Below, piece after piece: positions 1,904-13,638 of a DNA stretch of 36,959 bases (position 1 is the first letter of the stretch; every line of letters begins with the position of its first letter). The notes under the pieces are model-generated. The model was not told the origin of the DNA. It saw only the letters and a program-made list of their open reading frames with translations, and did not search any database. The DNA comes from Sphaerotilus sp. (GTDB lineage Bacteria; Pseudomonadota; Gammaproteobacteria; Burkholderiales; Burkholderiaceae_C), in contig NZ_JAAFKF010000032.1 of assembly GCF_013299175.1 (NCBI RefSeq), forward strand, positions 1 to 36,959. The letters are read 5' to 3'. Position numbers and translations under genes: made by a program.

Positions 1904-1939
1904 GATTTTGAATCGCCATTCTTGTCGGAAAGATGCCGT

Positions 1940-4048
1940 ATGAATCGTGTAGAGACCAGAACGCTGCGTGATGTTGCAGCATCTTTACGGCAGGCGGATG
2001 GCGAATGTGTGGTTCTGATGGGTGCCGGCTGTTCAAAGAGCGCCGGCATACCATTGGCTGGGGAGTTGATTCAGGAAGTTCGCAAAAGTTACCCCGAGGC
2101 ATTCAGGCGCGCATCTGAAGGTGGAAAAACGCCGGACTACAACGGACTGATGGATCAGTTATCCCCCAGAGAGCGTGAAAAATTGCTGCTGAAGCATATT
2201 AAATCTGCGCAACTCAACTGGGCCCATCTTGCTCTGGCGCAATTGTTTGCTCACGATAAAATTGATCGAGTTTTGACGGTCAATTTTGATCCATTGCTAG
2301 TAAAAGCTTGTGCAATGGTGAATTTCTTTCCAGCGATCTATGATTTGGCAGGGAGTGATCAGTTTAAGCCTCGTCGTATCGCGCCATACTCTATATTTTT
2401 TTTGAATGGGCAGCATACTGGATTTTCAATGCTCAATGGCGCAGATGAGCTGGATGCCCATAGGGGGAAGCTGTCTCGTATTGTTGAAAATACTGGAGTA
2501 AGCCGTGTATGGCTGGTAGTTGGCTACAGCGGGGAAGCGGATCCACTGTTGGATGTGTTGGCAAGTCAATCATGTTTTGATGGTGATCTTTATTGGCTTG
2601 GGCTTACTGAGCAGCCATCCGAGCGTCAAGCTCAGAGTGGAATATTTCAACGTGGCAGGCACGCTTTTTATGTTGGTGGTCAAGATGCTGATGTTTGCTT
2701 AACTGATTTGGCAAGCAATTTGGAGTGTTTTCCTCCTGATTTTCTAGTTCGGCCATTTGAATATCTTAAGAATCTGGTAGATCCTGTGCGATTTGAGACG
2801 GGTGGGCCAGTAGCTGTTGGTTTGCGTGATCGTCTCTTTGCACAGTTGAATACTGCCGCAAAGGCTGAAGAGTCTGGAGATCAGCAAGATATATCAAAGG
2901 TAGAGGGGTGGTTGCTTTCTGGGCAGCCAGACAGAGTTATCAAATGGTTCAAGCAGCTACCCGAACCAAATTCGGATGCGATCGATTTGGCTGCTTGGGC
3001 TTACATAGATGACGGAAACTTATTTGCTGATCGCGCCAGCAAATCATGTGCAAAAGATCTCGATCATGCGAGAGCACTGTGGGGAAAGGCGGGAGAGAGG
3101 TACTCGCTGGCGCTGAGTCTGAATGCGGATAAGCACGCAGCGGCCTACAACTGGGGCAACGTCTTGGATAATGAAGCCGAGGCGATCAAGGACGCAGACT
3201 TGCCAGCGGCGAGAGGGCTGTGGACGAAGGCGGGGGAGAAGTACGCGCTGGCGCTGAGCTTGAAGGCGGACAGGCACAAAGCGGCCAACAACTGGGGCTT
3301 CTCCTTGAGTAAGGAAGCCGATGCCATCAAGGACTCAGACTTGCCAGCGGCGAGAGCACTGTGGGCGAAGGCGGGAGAGAAGTACGCCCTGGCGCTAAGC
3401 CTGAAAGTGGATGCTCACGAAGCGGCCAACAACTGGGGCGTTGCCTTGAGTAAGGAAGCCGAGGCGATCAAGGACGCAGACTTGCCAGCGGCGAGAGGAC
3501 TGTGGGCGAAGGCGGGGGAGAAGTACGCGCTGGCGCTGAGCCTGAAAGTGGATGACCACAAAGCGGCCAACAACTGGGGCACCGCCTTGACTAAGGAAGC
3601 CGAGGCGATCAAGGATGCAGATTTGCCAGCGGCGAGGGCGCTGTGGGCGAAGGTGGGAGAAAAGTACGCGCTGGCGCTGAGCCTGAAATCGGATGACCAC
3701 GACGCGGCCAACAACTTGGGTTCTGCATTAGTTAAAGAATATCATGCACTTGTCGGAGCTGATCTGTCCGAAGCTCTTGCTGTGTTGTCGCGTGCTGCTT
3801 CTATTCTTGAAGAACAGAAGGCGATAAATATTCAGGCTCATGCGATCGTTGCGTATAACTTGGCGTGCGTTTACAGTCTACAGGGGAAGTCAGAGCTGGC
3901 TATTTCTGAGCTAGATGCGTGCATCAATGCTGGTACTCTGGCAGATCACTGGGTCAGCGACCCGGATTTGAATTCAATTCGTGGATCGGAACGGTTTCAG
4001 GTTTGGATGGAAAAGAATTTCCCTGGCATCGCCACGTCGCTGACTTGA
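1940..4048 (+). CDS. SIR2-like domain protein with C-terminal TPR-like tandem repeats (putative NAD-cleaving defence protein)
   Basis: The protein has 702 residues. Residues about 22-270 look like a SIR2-type NAD-binding domain: GAGCSKSAGIP (28-38) matches the glycine-rich loop, TVNFD (113-117) the Asn-containing motif, and GYSGEADP (195-202) the later NAD-pocket motif. The usual catalytic L-H-G appears as LNGQH (155-159), so the histidine may be replaced or shifted. Residues 372-607 are five TPR-like units of 45-47 residues, followed by more diverged TPR-like sequence ending in a WVSDPDLNSIRG tail. The start at 1940 is chosen because GGAAAG lies 7 bases upstream; a TTG at 1922 is possible. 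Outside the repeats the gene is much richer in A/T than its neighbours, suggesting transfer. SIR2 proteins fused to sensor modules are known antiphage NADases (for example ThsA and DSR families). No transmembrane segment or signal peptide is evident. The defence role is inference. Confidence 0.8.
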   Translation: MNRVETRTLRDVAASLRQADGECVVLMGAGCSKSAGIPLAGELIQEVRKSYPEAFRRASEGGKTPDYNGLMDQLSPREREKLLLKHIKSAQLNWAHLALAQLFAHDKIDRVLTVNFDPLLVKACAMVNFFPAIYDLAGSDQFKPRRIAPYSIFFLNGQHTGFSMLNGADELDAHRGKLSRIVENTGVSRVWLVVGYSGEADPLLDVLASQSCFDGDLYWLGLTEQPSERQAQSGIFQRGRHAFYVGGQDADVCLTDLASNLECFPPDFLVRPFEYLKNLVDPVRFETGGPVAVGLRDRLFAQLNTAAKAEESGDQQDISKVEGWLLSGQPDRVIKWFKQLPEPNSDAIDLAAWAYIDDGNLFADRASKSCAKDLDHARALWGKAGERYSLALSLNADKHAAAYNWGNVLDNEAEAIKDADLPAARGLWTKAGEKYALALSLKADRHKAANNWGFSLSKEADAIKDSDLPAARALWAKAGEKYALALSLKVDAHEAANNWGVALSKEAEAIKDADLPAARGLWAKAGEKYALALSLKVDDHKAANNWGTALTKEAEAIKDADLPAARALWAKVGEKYALALSLKSDDHDAANNLGSALVKEYHALVGADLSEALAVLSRAASILEEQKAINIQAHAIVAYNLACVYSLQGKSELAISELDACINAGTLADHWVSDPDLNSIRGSERFQVWMEKNFPGIATSLT
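3053..3751 (+). repeat. Five tandem in-frame repeats, 141-bp period, inside the SIR2-like gene
   Basis: The units begin at 3053 (135 bp, most diverged), 3188, 3329, 3470 and 3611 (141 bp each). The last four keep an exact 141-bp spacing, seen from the recurring ATCAAGGA at 3185, 3326, 3467 and 3608. Copies 3 and 4 differ at about a dozen of 141 bases by my count. Each unit encodes 47 residues built around DLPAAR, LWAKAGEKYALALSLK and AANNWG, a pattern like a TPR helix pair. The block is visibly more G/C-rich than the gene on either side of it, consistent with recent amplification or gene conversion. Confidence 0.92.
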
Positions 4049-4069
4049 TTATTTGGAGAGTTATTTATT

Positions 4070-4279
4070 ATGGCAAGTGTCACCATCTCTTCCCGGTTCC
4101 AGATCGTCATCCCCAGGGAAATTCGGCGCGCACTGGGTTTGGTACCTGGTCAGCGCGTAGATGTCCGATTGGTTGGCGATCACATCGAAATAGTGCCGCT
4201 GCCACTTGTGAACGCCTCGCCCAATGATCCGCAAGCGTCTCCGGATGGCCGGCCCGGTTCTGGCGCTACGGAAGCTTGA
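4070..4279 (+). CDS. AbrB/MazE/SpoVT-type DNA-binding protein (orphan antitoxin-like)
   Basis: This 69-residue protein starts with a swapped-hairpin AbrB domain at residues 2-43 ([16 protein letters not shown], then [12 protein letters not shown] and HIEIVP), typical of antitoxins paired with PIN-domain VapC toxins. GGAGAG at 4055-4060 supports the start. It begins 21 bp after the SIR2-like gene stop and may share its transcript. Residues 44-69 are Pro/Gly/Ser-rich and lack the conserved C-terminal toxin-binding segment usually seen in the family, and no toxin ORF follows before the REP-like region. It may be an eroded antitoxin, an autoregulator of the SIR2-like gene, or a remnant of a toxin-antitoxin pair. 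The domain call is solid; the role is not. Confidence 0.8.
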
Positions 4280-4330
4280 GATTTTCTGGCTGGTGTTGCG
4301 TCAAGCATTGATGGAAAGTTGGCGCGAACC

Positions 4331-4468
4331 CAGCCCCCACCCCAACCCTCCCCCGCTGGTGGAGGGAGCAAGACCCGGCAGTCGGCTACCAAAGCCCAGC
4401 CATCGAGCGCCTGGAAACGCTACGCCTGAACTCCTCCCCCCAGCGGGGGGAGGTCGGGAGTGGGCCTC
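4331..4468. repeat. Inverted pair of REP-like GC-rich hairpins
   Basis: Two elements of about 37 bases lie head to head: 4331-4368 (core CCTCCCCCGCTGGTGGAGGG) and 4430-4468 (core CTCCCCCCAGCGGGGGGAG). The reverse complement of the right element matches the left one over most of its length, including the flanking CCCACnCCnACC segment. Each core also folds on itself. This resembles repetitive extragenic palindromes arranged as an inverted pair. It fills most of the gene-free interval 4280-4511, in which I see nothing else. It could also act as a transcription attenuator downstream of the SIR2/AbrB genes. Confidence 0.7.
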
Positions 4469-4511
4469 CGGAGTCAGTCAACCTGCCAGTCCACGCACGG
4501 AACGCCACCAC

Positions 4512-8908: not shown

Positions 8909-11374
8909 TCAGGCCGCCACGAACCACTCGCCCGCCAGCGTCACCCCGACCTCACCCCGGATGTCCCGCGACGACGCACCGACCCGCAGCCCGAACGCCC
9001 CCGCCTCGGCCACCCAGCCGCCACGCGCCGTGTCGAACCACGCGAACGCCCGCATCCCGAGCGTGATCGTCGCGGTCCCGGTTTCACCCGGCTGCAGCGC
9101 GAGCTTGGCAAATCCCTTGAGTTCCTGTGCCGGCCGGTCCACACCGCTGACCGGATCGCTGACATAGAGCTGCACGACCTCGGCGCCTGCCCGCGTGCCC
9201 GTGTTGGTGACGTCCACCGAGACCGTGACGTGGCCACCCGACGCCATCTCCGTGCGATCGACGCGCACCTCGCCCCAGGCAAACGACGTGTACGACAGCC
9301 CATGCCCGAACGGGAACATCGGCGCGACGCCGTGCGTGTCGTGGTGCCGGTAGCCAATGAACACGCCCTCGTCATAGACCACGCGCCCATCCACGCCGGG
9401 GTAGCGCAGCGGATCGCCGTTCGAGGTGATGACATCGGCGAGCCGCTTCGGCCACGTCTGCGGCAGCCGCCCGCCCGGCGCGGCGCGGCCCGTCAGCACG
9501 TCGGCGATCGCGTGGCCGCACTCCTGGCCCGGATACCACGCCTGCAGCACCGCCGGCACCTTGTCGAGCCACGGCAGCTCGACCGGCGCCCCGGTCTGCA
9601 GCACGACGATGGTGTTCGGGTTCGCGGCGACGACGCGCTCGACCAGCGCGTTCTGCTGGTGCGGCAGCGCCATGTCGGGGCGGTCCAGGCCCTCGCAGTC
9701 CCACTCGGCGTTCAGGCCGATGAAGACCACCGCCACGTCCGCCTGACGCGCCGCGGCTTCGGCTGCCGCCAGATCGGCCTCGCCCCGCGGCAGGTGTACG
9801 CCCAGCCGCAGCGCCTTGAACGACACCGGCACACTCGTCGGCGACGAATACTCGACCGTGATCGCCACCGGCACGCCCGCCCGCAGACGGTGGCTGACCA
9901 CGCGCTCGGTGCAGCCGAAGGTGAAGTAGGTGTCGCCTGGCGCCCAGCTTTCCCACGCCTCGACGACCTGCACGCCATCGAACAGCACGCGGCTCAGGCC
10001 CGCGCTGGTGATCGAGACCTGGTAATCGCCATCGGCCGGCGGCACGAAGGTCAGCGTGGCCCGCGCCGAGAAGTGCAGCGGGTCGATGCCGTCCTCCACC
10101 GCGCCGCCCCAGAGCTTTTCGCTGCTCGGGTAGACGGCCTGCACCGCCGGCTCGCCGCTCAGGTCGGTCGAGGTGTAGAACGCCACCGCCATCGGCTGGT
10201 TCAGCACCGGCACCCAGCGGTAGTTGTCCGCGCCGGGCGTGCAGACCAGCGCGGCGTCGGTCTGCGCGGCCAGCCCTTGGTGCGGCGTGATGCGGTGCAG
10301 CGCGTTCACGTTGGCACTGCCGCCGCCCATGATCTGCGCGGTGTCCACGTTCGGGCCGATCAGCGCGATCGTGCGGGCCGATCCGGCGTTTTCTCCCAGT
10401 GGCAGCAGCGCGCCGTCGTTCTTCAGCAGCACCGACCCTTCCGCGCCGAGGCGGCGGATCAGGGCGCGGCGCTCGGGCGAATCCTCGGAACGCTCGTCCG
10501 GGATGCCCGGCGACGCGAAGCCGCCGACCCGCTCGACCAGTTGCAGCACCCGCCCCGCGCAGGCCCGCACGTCATCGGCCGACACGCGACCGTCGCGCAC
10601 CGCCTGCACCAGCGCCTCGCCCCGGTGGCGGGTCGTGCCGGGCATCTCCAGGTCCATGCCGGCGGTGGCGGATTTGTGCGTGTCGTGCTCGGCGAACCAG
10701 TCCGACATCACCAGCCCGTCGAAGCCCCACTGGCCACGCAGGATGTCGCGCACCAGCGGTGCGTTGTCGCCCGCGAAGTCGCCGTTGATGCGGTTGTACG
10801 AGGTCATCACGGCCAGCACGTTCGCTTCCTTGACGGCTTTCTCGAACGGCACCAGGTACAGCTCGCGCATCGTCCGCTCATCGACCACGGAGTCGATCGA
10901 CATGCGCTCCACCTCGCTGTCGTTGCAGACGAAGTGCTTGATCGTCGCGGCCACGCCGTTGTCCTGCAGACCGCGGATGTAGCCGCAGGCGATCTCGCCG
11001 GTCAGGTACGGGTCTTCCGAGTAGCACTCGAAGTTGCGGCCGTTGAGCGTCGAGCGGTGCAGGTTGACGGTCGGCGCGAGCAGCACGGTGGCGCCCTTGA
11101 GCTTGGCCTCGTCCGCCAGCGCGTGGCCGGCTTCGGCGATCAGCGCGGGGTTCCAGGTGGCGCCGAGCGCGATGGCGGCGGGGAAACACGCGGTCTGCGG
11201 GCCGCCGTTGAAGATGCCGCCGCGGGCGCCGTTCGGGCCGTCAGTGACCTTGATGGCGGGGATGCCCAGCCGCTGGATGGCGACCGTACACCAGAAGTCG
11301 GCGCCGGTGAGCAGGCTGACTTGCTCTTCCAGCGTCAGGGCGTCGAGCAGGGCGGGGATGTTGGGGGTGGTCAT
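8909..11374 (-). CDS. GH3 beta-glucosidase with PA14 insert and C-terminal Fn3-like domain
   Basis: This 821-residue glycoside hydrolase family 3 enzyme shows KVTDGPNGARGG near residue 42, the KH pair at 146-147, and the nucleophile D225 in LVMSDW. A PA14-like domain (FSARATLTFVPPADGDYQVSI) interrupts the second GH3 domain, which continues with NTIVVLQTGAPVELPW. A fibronectin-III-like domain (VTVSVDVTNTGTRAGAEVVQLY) closes the protein. The architecture is that of BglB/DesR-like exo-beta-glucosidases; xylosidase activity is possible. No signal peptide is present, so it should act in the cytoplasm on imported oligosaccharides. It lies 24 bp after the preceding oxidoreductase gene and appears to be the last catabolic gene of the operon. 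Confidence 0.92.
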   Translation of the reverse strand: MTTPNIPALLDALTLEEQVSLLTGADFWCTVAIQRLGIPAIKVTDGPNGARGGIFNGGPQTACFPAAIALGATWNPALIAEAGHALADEAKLKGATVLLAPTVNLHRSTLNGRNFECYSEDPYLTGEIACGYIRGLQDNGVAATIKHFVCNDSEVERMSIDSVVDERTMRELYLVPFEKAVKEANVLAVMTSYNRINGDFAGDNAPLVRDILRGQWGFDGLVMSDWFAEHDTHKSATAGMDLEMPGTTRHRGEALVQAVRDGRVSADDVRACAGRVLQLVERVGGFASPGIPDERSEDSPERRALIRRLGAEGSVLLKNDGALLPLGENAGSARTIALIGPNVDTAQIMGGGSANVNALHRITPHQGLAAQTDAALVCTPGADNYRWVPVLNQPMAVAFYTSTDLSGEPAVQAVYPSSEKLWGGAVEDGIDPLHFSARATLTFVPPADGDYQVSITSAGLSRVLFDGVQVVEAWESWAPGDTYFTFGCTERVVSHRLRAGVPVAITVEYSSPTSVPVSFKALRLGVHLPRGEADLAAAEAAARQADVAVVFIGLNAEWDCEGLDRPDMALPHQQNALVERVVAANPNTIVVLQTGAPVELPWLDKVPAVLQAWYPGQECGHAIADVLTGRAAPGGRLPQTWPKRLADVITSNGDPLRYPGVDGRVVYDEGVFIGYRHHDTHGVAPMFPFGHGLSYTSFAWGEVRVDRTEMASGGHVTVSVDVTNTGTRAGAEVVQLYVSDPVSGVDRPAQELKGFAKLALQPGETGTATITLGMRAFAWFDTARGGWVAEAGAFGLRVGASSRDIRGEVGVTLAGEWFVAA

Positions 11375-11398
11375 GGAAAGGGTGTCCGGATCAGGAAG

Positions 11399-12565
11399 TC
11401 AGGAAGGGTCGAATGGCAGGTCGGTCCACGCGCCGTCACGCGAGGCGCTGGCGAGGACCGTTTCCACAAACGCGAGGCTGCGCACGCCGTCGTCCACGCC
11501 GGGCACGCTGGCCGGGCGGGCGAGGTCGCGCAGGTCGCTGGCGAAGTCGCGGTAAAGCTGGGCGAAGGCTTCGAGATAACCCTCGGGGTGGCCGCCCGGC
11601 GTGCGGGTCGCGGCGGCGGCGACGGCGGGCAGCGACGCCATGCCGCGGGTCAGGCGCTGCGCGGGCTGGCCGGCCGGATGCCACGTCAGCTCGTTGGGCG
11701 ATTCCTGGTCCCAGTGCAGCGCGGCCTTCGTGCCGTAGACGCGCAGGCGCAGGTGGTTTTCCTCGCCAGTCGCCACCTGGCTGGCCCAGAGCATCCCGCG
11801 GGCGCCGCTGGCGTAGCGCAGTTGCACCTGCACATGGTCATCGACACGCCGGCCGGGCACGAAGGTGGTCAGCTCGGCGCTGAGCTGCTGCGGCGACTGG
11901 CCGGTGACGAATTCGGCGAGCTGCGCGGCGTGCGTGCCCACGTCGCCGAGGCAGCCGGCCGGTCCCGCCAGCGCGGGGTCGGTGCGCCACGCAGCTTGCT
12001 TCTGGCCCGAATCTTCGAGCGGCTGCGCAAGCCAGTCTTGCGCATACTCGACCTGCACGATGCGCACGTCGCCCAGTTCGCCCGCCGCCACCAGCGCACG
12101 GGCGGCGCGGATCAGCGGATAGCCGGTGTAGTTGTGCGTCAACGCGAGCCGCACGCCGTGTTGCCGCACGAGGGCTTGCAGGTGCTGCGCGTCGGCGAGG
12201 TTCGTGGTCAGCGGCTTGTCGCAGATGACGTGAATACCCGCCTCGATGAAGGCGCAGGCGACCGGGAAATGCAGGTGGTTCGGCGTGACGATCGCCACCG
12301 CGTCGATGCCGCTGCCGTCAGCCCGGCGGGCGGCTTCGGCGCGTGCCATCTCGCGGAAATCGCTGTAGCAGCGCGCCGGGTCGATCCGCAGCTCCGCTCC
12401 GCTGGCGCGGGCGCGTTCCGGGTCGGACGACAGCGCACCCGCGACCAGTTCCCAGTCGTCGTCGAGCCGCGCCGCGATGCGATGGACGGCGCCGATGAAC
12501 GCGCCTTGCCCGCCGCCGACCATGCCCAGCCGCAGGCGGCGCGGCGCGGAGATCGGCGCGTTCAT
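11399..12565 (-). CDS. Gfo/Idh/MocA-family NAD(P)-dependent sugar oxidoreductase (A)
   Basis: This 388-residue protein has the nucleotide-binding loop GGGQGAFIG at residues 17-25, CDKPLTTN (DKP at 116-118, a variant of the family EKP), and THNYTGYP, ending in the C-terminal substrate domain (GDVGTHAAQL, then LRLRVYGTKAALHW). Such enzymes oxidise or reduce sugars, inositols or glycosides with NAD(P). The ATG at 12563-12565 overlaps the stop of the isomerase-like gene by 4 bp, indicating coupling. A longer upstream open frame is the shadow of that gene. The substrate is unknown; the operon points to a beta-glucoside or mannoside derivative, possibly oxidised at C3. Confidence 0.9.
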   Translation of the reverse strand: MNAPISAPRRLRLGMVGGGQGAFIGAVHRIAARLDDDWELVAGALSSDPERARASGAELRIDPARCYSDFREMARAEAARRADGSGIDAVAIVTPNHLHFPVACAFIEAGIHVICDKPLTTNLADAQHLQALVRQHGVRLALTHNYTGYPLIRAARALVAAGELGDVRIVQVEYAQDWLAQPLEDSGQKQAAWRTDPALAGPAGCLGDVGTHAAQLAEFVTGQSPQQLSAELTTFVPGRRVDDHVQVQLRYASGARGMLWASQVATGEENHLRLRVYGTKAALHWDQESPNELTWHPAGQPAQRLTRGMASLPAVAAAATRTPGGHPEGYLEAFAQLYRDFASDLRDLARPASVPGVDDGVRSLAFVETVLASASRDGAWTDLPFDPS

Positions 12566-13638
12566 GCCCGTGGCTCCAGACCGAGCATCCTGCGGTTGGT
12601 GGCGTCGTCGGTGGTGCTCGCCGCGAAGTCGTCGAAGGCCCGTTCGGCCACGCGGATCAGGTGATCGCGGATGAACGGCGCCCCCTCGGCGGCCCCTTGC
12701 TCGGGATGCTTGATGCAGCATTCCCACTCCAGCACCGCCCAGCCGGTGTAACCGTACTGCGTCAGCTTGCTGAAGATGGCGCGGAAATCCACCTGCCCGT
12801 CGCCGAGCGAGCGGAAGCGGCCGGCGCGGTCCTTCCATGCCTGGAAGCCGCCGTAGACCCCGAGTCGGCCGGTCGGGCGGAACTCGGCGTCCTTGACGTG
12901 GAACGCCTTGATGCGCTCGTGGTAGCAGTCGATGTAGGCGAGGTAGTCGAGCTGCTGCAGCACGAAGTGGCTCGGGTCGTACAACAGGTTCGCCCGCGGG
13001 TGGTTCCCCACGCGCTCCAGGAACATCTCGTAGCTCGCCCCGTCGCAGAGGTCTTCGCCGGGATGGACCTCGTAGCAGACATCGACGCCGGCTTCGTCGA
13101 ACGCATCGAGGATCGGCCGCCAGCGCGCCGCGAGTTCGTCGAACGCCGCCTCGATCAGCCCGGCCGGCCGCTGCGGCCACGGGTAGAGGTAGGGCCACGC
13201 GAGCGCGCCGCTGAACGTGGCGTGCGCAGTCAGGCCAAGGCGCTGCGATGCCTTGGCGGCGAAGTGCAGTTGCTGCTTCGCCCATTCGGTGCGTTCGGCG
13301 TACTTGCCGCGCACCGCTTCGGGTGCGAAGGCGTCCATCGGCGCGTCGTAGGCGGGGTGTACGGCGACGAGCTGGCCTTGCAGGTGCGTCGAAAGCTCGG
13401 TGATCTGCACGCCATGCGCCGCCAGCCGGCCGCGCAGGTCATCGCAGTAGGTCTGGCTCTCGGCGGCCAGTGCGAGGTCCATCAGCCGCGTGTCCCAGCT
13501 CGGGATCTGCACGCCCGCGTAGCCGTGGCCTGCCGCCCAGCCGGCGAGGCCGTCGAGTGAGTTGTACGGCGCCGCGTCGCCCGCGAACTGCGCCAGGAAG
13601 ACGCCGGGGCCGCGGATCGGGGAGGTGGTGGTGGTCAT
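12562..13638 (-). CDS. TIM-barrel sugar phosphate isomerase/epimerase-like protein (A)
   Basis: This 358-residue protein belongs to the xylose isomerase-like TIM-barrel superfamily. Likely metal or acid-base residues are E190 and H192 (CYEVHPGEDL), D221 and H224 (LLYDPSHF), H247 and D250 (FHVKDAE), and E304 (WAVLEWE). It is longer than the common 250-290-residue members because of extra segments around residues 85-155. Proteins of this fold isomerise, epimerise or cleave sugars and keto-sugars. It sits between two oxidoreductases and next to a second isomerase-like gene, 13 bp downstream of that gene, so they probably work on the same intermediates. No signal peptide. Confidence 0.88.
   Translation of the reverse strand: MTTTTSPIRGPGVFLAQFAGDAAPYNSLDGLAGWAAGHGYAGVQIPSWDTRLMDLALAAESQTYCDDLRGRLAAHGVQITELSTHLQGQLVAVHPAYDAPMDAFAPEAVRGKYAERTEWAKQQLHFAAKASQRLGLTAHATFSGALAWPYLYPWPQRPAGLIEAAFDELAARWRPILDAFDEAGVDVCYEVHPGEDLCDGASYEMFLERVGNHPRANLLYDPSHFVLQQLDYLAYIDCYHERIKAFHVKDAEFRPTGRLGVYGGFQAWKDRAGRFRSLGDGQVDFRAIFSKLTQYGYTGWAVLEWECCIKHPEQGAAEGAPFIRDHLIRVAERAFDDFAASTTDDATNRRMLGLEPRA

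Follow-up and report, generated by a model that had tools for sequence, protein, structure and literature searches.

A SIR2-like domain joined to a TPR array in a Sphaerotilus genome: a candidate stand-alone, ligand-triggered NADase

What is the role of a protein that joins a SIR2-like domain to near-identical repeats and is encoded by a single gene lodged among metabolic genes? The question is raised by a reading frame in a stretch of 36,959 nucleotides from Sphaerotilus sp. (NCBI RefSeq assembly GCF_013299175.1, contig NZ_JAAFKF010000032.1), called here the window. The initial annotation, made from the letters, proposed a SIR2-like module fused to TPR-like repeats and acting as a stand-alone anti-phage NADase. 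The frame is open throughout from 1940 to 4048 (702 aa), with an in-frame TTG at 1922 as a possible alternative start, and all three motifs named in that proposal, GAGCSKSAGIP, TVNFD and GYSGEADP, are present in the translation (Table 1). Pfam at E 0.01 found neither a SIR2 nor a TPR family in the protein, and its hits over the repeats (CvfB_1st at 4.2e-9, Alg17C_C and GP67) were rejected as chance matches, since no single stretch passes alone. Domain searches recognized no NTPase family between the SIR2 domain and the repeats. The AlphaFold2 model of the whole protein, built on an alignment of 28 sequences, shows the TPR superhelix with high confidence. Features added by the present analysis are the NG that replaces HG at the active site, the AbrB-like gene, the palindrome and the TPR end domain.

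Table 1. Coordinates of the features of the locus, with the evidence for each
Feature	Position	Strand	Evidence
SIR2-TPR gene, 702 aa	1940..4048	+	ORF reading; AlphaFold2 whole-protein model pLDDT 91.6, pTM 0.84
SIR2-like domain, aa 1-275	1940..2764	+	PADLOC Aga_SIR2 and PDC-S65, family profile, model, Foldseek
GAGCSKSAGIP, NAD-binding motif, aa 28-38	2021..2053	+	Translation, family alignment
TVNFD (N115, D117), aa 113-117	2276..2290	+	Translation, family alignment
NG (N156-G157) where the catalytic HG motif is expected	2405..2410	+	Translation, family alignment
GYSGEADP motif, aa 195-202	2522..2545	+	Translation, family alignment
Helical linker, about 100 aa	2765..3067	+	Domain searches and model; no NTPase domain recognized
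Five 47-aa TPR units, period 141 nt, last unit diverged	3068..3772	+	Tandem-repeat search, unit comparison
TPR end-of-group domain, aa 638-690	3851..4009	+	NCBIfam NF047558, E 1.4e-13, 50.5 bits (cut-off 32)
AbrB/MazE-like DNA-binding protein, 69 aa	4070..4279	+	Pfam PF04014, E 1.3e-10; same insert as the SIR2-TPR gene, but not a conserved partner
Palindromic repeat	4332..4467		Repeat search; within the stretch 4285-4511
Sequence missing at the empty congener sites, approximate to a few bases	1904..4511		Congener comparison

The gene is indeed located inside a metabolic operon, preceded by a propionyl-CoA carboxylase alpha gene and followed by genes for a VOC epimerase and an acyl-CoA synthetase-like protein; the genes of the window to which Pfam gives a name encode a carboxylase, a glycoside hydrolase, ABC transport, a molybdopterin oxidoreductase, a nitrite reductase and the like. 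The epimerase is present in all 12 congeners (13 loci), and in 12 of the 13 loci only 2-129 bp separate it from the carboxylase, which constitutes the empty site. The insert of the window spans roughly positions 1904-4511, and its end is formed by a stretch repeated in the genome (4285-4511, holding the palindrome), for which 29 genome matches were counted, itself included, mostly short pieces. At the thirteenth congener locus (G004:C34, L025) the gap measures 768 bp and houses, at about 210-883, an AbrB/MazE-like gene and a PIN-domain gene. Foreign genes have thus entered the gap on at least two occasions, once in the window with the SIR2-TPR gene and once in the congener with the AbrB-PIN pair. 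The AbrB/MazE-like protein of the window shares 56% identity over 34 aa with the AbrB of that pair, and no toxin gene was recognized adjoining its gene.

The distribution of the gene is patchy. At E 1e-10 it was not found in 99 other genomes, including 12 of 12 congeners. Strong matches (1e-30) occur in 2 of 399 genomes of the taxonomic family, one being its own and the other cut by a contig end, and matches at 1e-20 in 2 of 369 genomes of the class, again including its own. In the order, the SIR2 part is matched at 1e-6 in 8 of 399 genomes, strongly only in its own genome and in G263, one of the two genomes sampled of its genus. The G263 relative is full-length, with 819 aa and seven regular units; that of G530 has 667 aa. 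A vertically inherited housekeeping gene is ruled out by the absence from congeners, the empty sites and the 2 of 399 genomes in the taxonomic family, and from these comparisons we conclude that the gene is accessory and horizontally spread.

Scanning a collection of species genomes returned at least 39 family loci, a lower bound because the patterns used are biased towards members close to the three query rows; a related-locus search with the window protein as single query found none. Members belong to Pseudomonadota, Planctomycetota, Chloroflexota, Acidobacteriota, Armatimonadota, Nitrospinota and other phyla, and to Archaea. The family was aligned in 40 rows, which comprise 38 loci, the window and G263 (L065, with stops in the span, was dropped). 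At least two TPR units of 44-47 aa follow the SIR2 domain in 30 of the 40 rows, a count made partly circular by a unit profile itself built from family units, and the number of units varies from 2 to 11. The window protein shares this plan, as do two archaeal members, from Methanosarcinaceae (L049, 5 units) and Pacearchaeota (L061, 3 units); the other 10 rows are short, cut or have different C-termini. The TPR end domain is found in 18 of 28 members. When the TPR array alone was searched against 398 genomes of the phylum, one match at 1e-25 was obtained besides its own, again a SIR2-TPR protein, with HG. Among the 10 rows lacking two such units, L073 is a distant relative, L070 (466-2916) fuses a related SIR2 domain to a radical SAM domain with no TPR unit found, and in L068 of Psychrobacter pygoscelis (9884-12928) a related SIR2 domain precedes a long series of near-identical TPR repeats of another type.

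The SIR2 domain itself is matched by the PADLOC models Aga_SIR2 (9e-18) and PDC-S65 (2.4e-17), the latter also matched by 28 of 28 members. Both the GAGxS and the TxNxD motifs of SIR2_2-like NADase domains are present, and N115/D117 correspond by motif to N112/D114 of ThsA, N133/D135 of DSR2 and N110/D112 of PaAvs5-1. Modelled alone on an alignment of 30 sequences, the SIR2 part reached a pLDDT of 94.2 and a pTM of 0.92, and Foldseek placed SPARSA first (E 4.7e-13, TMq 0.75), then ThsA (5.2e-11) and DSR2 (4.7e-9); the 50 matches listed also include structures of KomBC, HAM-SIR2 and EfAvs5, and a canonical sirtuin first appears at rank 27. By its predicted structure, the window SIR2 fold is nearest to SPARSA, ThsA and DSR2, all anti-phage NADases. 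A comparison with ThsA and DSR2 was what the initial annotation had called for, a fold lacking the NAD pocket being an outcome that would speak against it; the predicted fold and its matches give a SIR2 fold with the pocket. The whole-protein model matched DSR2, its best Foldseek match, and TPR superhelices, and because the TM-scores of the listed DSR2 matches are low (0.25-0.29 by query length, at 10-15% identity), the repeat parts of the two proteins do not superpose.

SIR2 folds are also known to carry ADP-ribosyltransferase and deacylase activities, and the protein could be an NAD-dependent enzyme of either type whose TPRs select a protein substrate. The CobB deacylase model, matched by 13 of 28 members at E <=1e-5 (best 2.5e-9), agrees with such a function. 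We consider it decidedly improbable, however, given the first ranks of anti-phage NADases in the fold search and the profile of 30 family SIR2 domains, which matched the SPARSA SIR2 at E 3e-19, the family HG aligning with its HG, and canonical sirtuins at about 1e-5 and over positions 17-120 of 281 only.

The HG motif expected of a SIR2 NADase is altered in the window protein, where Asn156 takes the place of the catalytic His. Readable in 39 of the 40 aligned rows, the motif is HG in 36 and NG in three: the window, Zoogloea (L035) and Undibacterium (L036). These three proteins, from three genera, form one clade with support 100/100, in a tree of which 16 of 32 inner branches are open. The Asn of TxNFD is retained in 39 of 40 rows. 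The exception is the G530 protein (L062, 9992-11995; also L034), which reads TTSFD for TTNFD and retains HG, and whose gene is flanked, by eye, by a leuA-like gene and a fatty-acid synthesis cluster.

Our first idea on N156, decay of the active site, was dropped: because the two nearest relatives share the Asn and NG is functional in PaAvs5-1, the NG of the window protein is probably a working variant. In the accessible text on PaAvs5-1 (PMC12931631), NG is located at 153-154, protection is lost with Ala or Gln in this place, Asn153 outperforms His, which retains part of the protection, and NG is roughly as frequent as HG in Avs5 homologues. A pseudoenzyme that binds NAD+ or ADP-ribose without cutting it would also account for the Asn156 that the window protein shares with its two nearest relatives. 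In the part of PMC11263360 that describes the pockets of DSR2 (N133/Y134/D135/H171) and ThsA (N112/Y113/D114/H152), the His-to-Ala change at the DSR2 position equivalent to N156 reduces activity, which points the same way. The Avs5 precedent, the intact other motifs and the spread of the NG clade over three genera nevertheless make a pseudoenzyme improbable. In the literature searched, as far as its accessible text goes, NG was met only for Avs5. Because the NG clade sits among HG members, NG probably arose here independently of Avs5, as judged from a tree of family members alone. The natural HG and NG members of the family make its chemistry directly testable.

The near-identical repeats that had been described are real: a tandem repeat starting at 3068 has a period of 141 nt (47 aa), 4.6 copies and 86% matches (score 935), and the five units of the window share 67-91% of their DNA pairwise. 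The claim that the gene is A/T-rich stood for the SIR2 domain, the linker and the end (GC 0.47-0.48, GC3 0.40-0.42), beside flanking genes with a GC3 of 0.95 (carboxylase) and 0.92 (epimerase), but not for the repeat array (3068-3720), with a GC of 0.62 and a GC3 of 0.78. This mosaic is not a rule of the family, array GC3 exceeding SIR2 GC3 by >0.25 in 3 of 20 proteins; a contrast like that of the window was seen in L041 and L044 and is absent in 17 of 20. An origin of the array by copying from another gene of the same genome was also rejected, as the protein matched no other place in the genome at E 0.001.

Comparison of 74 units in 18 proteins, 16 of which have unit pairs at least 65% identical, showed where the units differ. 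Among the 37 columns, variability in these 16 proteins is highest in six, which correspond to TPR positions 9, 34, 13, 12, 5 and 2. In the available portion of PMC1261162, positions 2, 5, 9, 12, 13, 33 and 34 are given as the most variable, concave-face contact positions of TPRs; six of these seven are our top six columns, and the seventh, position 33, ranks 16th. Contact columns at ranks 1-6 of 37 were reached in 0 of 20,000 permutations, the six columns having been named after the units of the window had been inspected and the same top six being obtained with the window omitted. Contact positions are more variable than others in 15 of 16 proteins, and the dN/dS-like ratio between units is 0.91 at contact positions and 0.21 elsewhere. 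The result depends in part on the unit-identity limit: at 0.75, column 24 (position 2) drops to seventh, and at 0.80 it is outside the top eight and the contact ratio falls from 0.91 to 0.55.

A diversifying immune array as a special trait of the family was rejected, since ordinary TPR proteins vary at contact positions too. In a control of 12 such proteins from 37 plasmid records (Leptospira, Legionella and others left out), four had units at the 65% limit, with a ratio of 1.10 at contact positions and 0.31 elsewhere, and seven at the 50% limit, with 0.71 and 0.28. Contact-position variation being a general TPR trait in this control, it supports a binding function only. The predicted superhelix and this variation agree with the earlier view of the repeats as ligand-binding, and the array resembles an ordinary TPR superhelix of the protein-binding type. 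These data also bear on whether the gene is recently acquired functionless cargo heading for decay, as its foreign composition and its absence from 12 of 12 congeners could suggest. The intact frame of 702 aa and the conservation of the repeat core, visible in the low ratio at non-contact columns of the 16 proteins, render this highly improbable.

The proposed anti-phage role fared less well than the proposed architecture. That the gene is stand-alone was confirmed: among 234 ORFs around 33 family loci, called by length alone and excluding L057, L065-L067, L070, L072 and L073, only three locus pairs share a similar protein (1e-6). Defence genes were sought with PADLOC at 1e-10 in ORFs lying no more than three genes from a family gene (150 of 152, one of the two left out exceeding 1200 aa), and 16 models matched, none of them more than two proteins. 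The sole comparison set, 62 picked ORFs of the window with overlapping frames included and shorter ones omitted, gave mad3, a CARF fusion and mad8, one protein each. No Argonaute model matched at 1e-10 in either set. The neighbours are mostly housekeeping genes, and the neighbourhoods scanned, around the window gene and its relatives, gave no signal of a defence island. A scan of viral contigs found no relative, and only three phage records match the window protein, in its SIR2 part alone, at 24-26% identity; the weak plasmid and phage matches stay below 32% identity and cover <=44% of the query. SIR2-like proteins at 23-26% identity are found in two Vibrio phage records and in Haloferax virus Halfgib1, where the protein is annotated as a tetratricopeptide repeat protein, and therefore this virus may carry a SIR2-TPR fusion. 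With its metabolic neighbourhood and its replaced His, the window leaves the anti-phage role unsupported, and the missing defence-island signal is the main weakness of that reading. The initial annotation had named vertical housekeeping conservation with no defence association as a finding against it; the gene proved accessory, and a defence association was not found.

The trigger may then be other than a phage: a SIR2 NADase could serve as a stress, plasmid or toxin-antitoxin-like switch whose TPRs bind a host protein. Besides the lack of a defence-island context, this possibility draws on members that adjoin ordinary chromosomal genes, such as the chemoreceptor genes in G263, and on the antitoxin-like AbrB gene in the same insert, with an AbrB-PIN module in the same slot of G004:C34. 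AbrB, however, is not a conserved partner, having been found at E <1e-3 in 1 of the 40 family loci, and a patchy spread over phyla and Archaea would be unusual for a host-protein switch. We regard a non-phage trigger as unlikely, though a serious contender.

Among known systems, SPARSA has the SIR2 protein closest to the window domain by profile and by fold. The SIR2 of SPARSA is fused to APAZ and belongs to a short-Argonaute complex, whereas the window protein has a TPR C-terminus and no conserved partner was found. Thoeris ThsA has the same SIR2 NADase fold and, in the accessible descriptions, acts with the TIR protein ThsB, whose signal it senses via SLOG; neither ThsB nor SLOG was found beside or in the window gene, which is accompanied by the carboxylase, AbrB-like, epimerase and acyl-CoA synthetase-like genes. 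DSR2 is likewise a single protein with a SIR2 domain and then a helical repeat sensor, but is described, in the text available, as having HEAT repeats, about 1000 aa and the catalytic H171, whereas the window protein has a TPR array and a TPR end domain in the place of the HEAT repeats. DSR2 is activated by a phage tail tube protein. Avs5, in the available text on PaAvs5-1, resembles the window protein in plan, with an N-terminal SIR2 NADase, C-terminal TPR/Sel1-like repeats and the NG variant, and the window protein has the NG or HG typical of the Avs5 SIR2. It differs from Avs5 by its helical linker of about 100 aa in the place of a STAND NTPase, its regular 47-aa array, its TPR end domain and a SIR2 domain nearest to SPARSA. 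The match to the PADLOC candidate PDC-S65 covers positions 18-291 of the 592 of the model, its SIR2 part only. Neither the name PDC-S65 nor the term 'SIR2-TPR' was found in the literature searched. Candidate likenesses to the family come from the accessible parts of two papers, in which the legend of a sirtuin tree gives TPR as an extra domain of SIR2_2 proteins (PMC12700824) and a half-sentence mentions sirtuins in TPR-GreA/B-PIN systems (PMC9503650). In the accessible part of PMC9122126, SIR2 is joined to STAND and C-terminal repeats. The architecture had been reported as unmatched to any named system, and no characterized STAND-less SIR2-TPR protein was found in the literature searched, which covered few subscription papers.

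On balance, our best reading, to which we give somewhat better than an even chance, is a stand-alone, ligand-triggered, horizontally spread SIR2 NADase akin to the DSR2/Avs5 kind, from which it would differ as a STAND-less variant with a TPR sensor. The gene, its predicted fold and motifs, its family and accessory status and the absence of a conserved partner in our survey come from the present analysis, and the NADase activity of the SIR2 fold and of its NG variant from publications on other proteins. In the mechanism we propose, the C-terminal TPR superhelix would bind a ligand that is most likely proteinaceous and could plausibly come from a phage, upon which the N-terminal SIR2 domains would change or assemble, possibly as an oligomer. 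They would then hydrolyse NAD+ via N115/D117, with Asn156 in the place of His, and the loss of NAD+ would halt the cell before the invader multiplies. A phage is a plausible trigger, and the protein may have a role in phage defence.

A wider proposal is possible but doubtful: the family may be a STAND-less, one-gene counterpart of NOD-like receptors in Bacteria and Archaea. Its SIR2 NADase would be driven by a TPR array that gains and loses entire near-identical units and whose ligand-contact positions are retuned, and one proteobacterial clade would have turned to NG independently of Avs5. If the protein is a ligand-triggered NADase, a SIR2 immune receptor can operate in the absence of a STAND motor, its sensor being a simple array of modular repeats, and NG would be a second, probably independent, case at an active site thought to be invariant.
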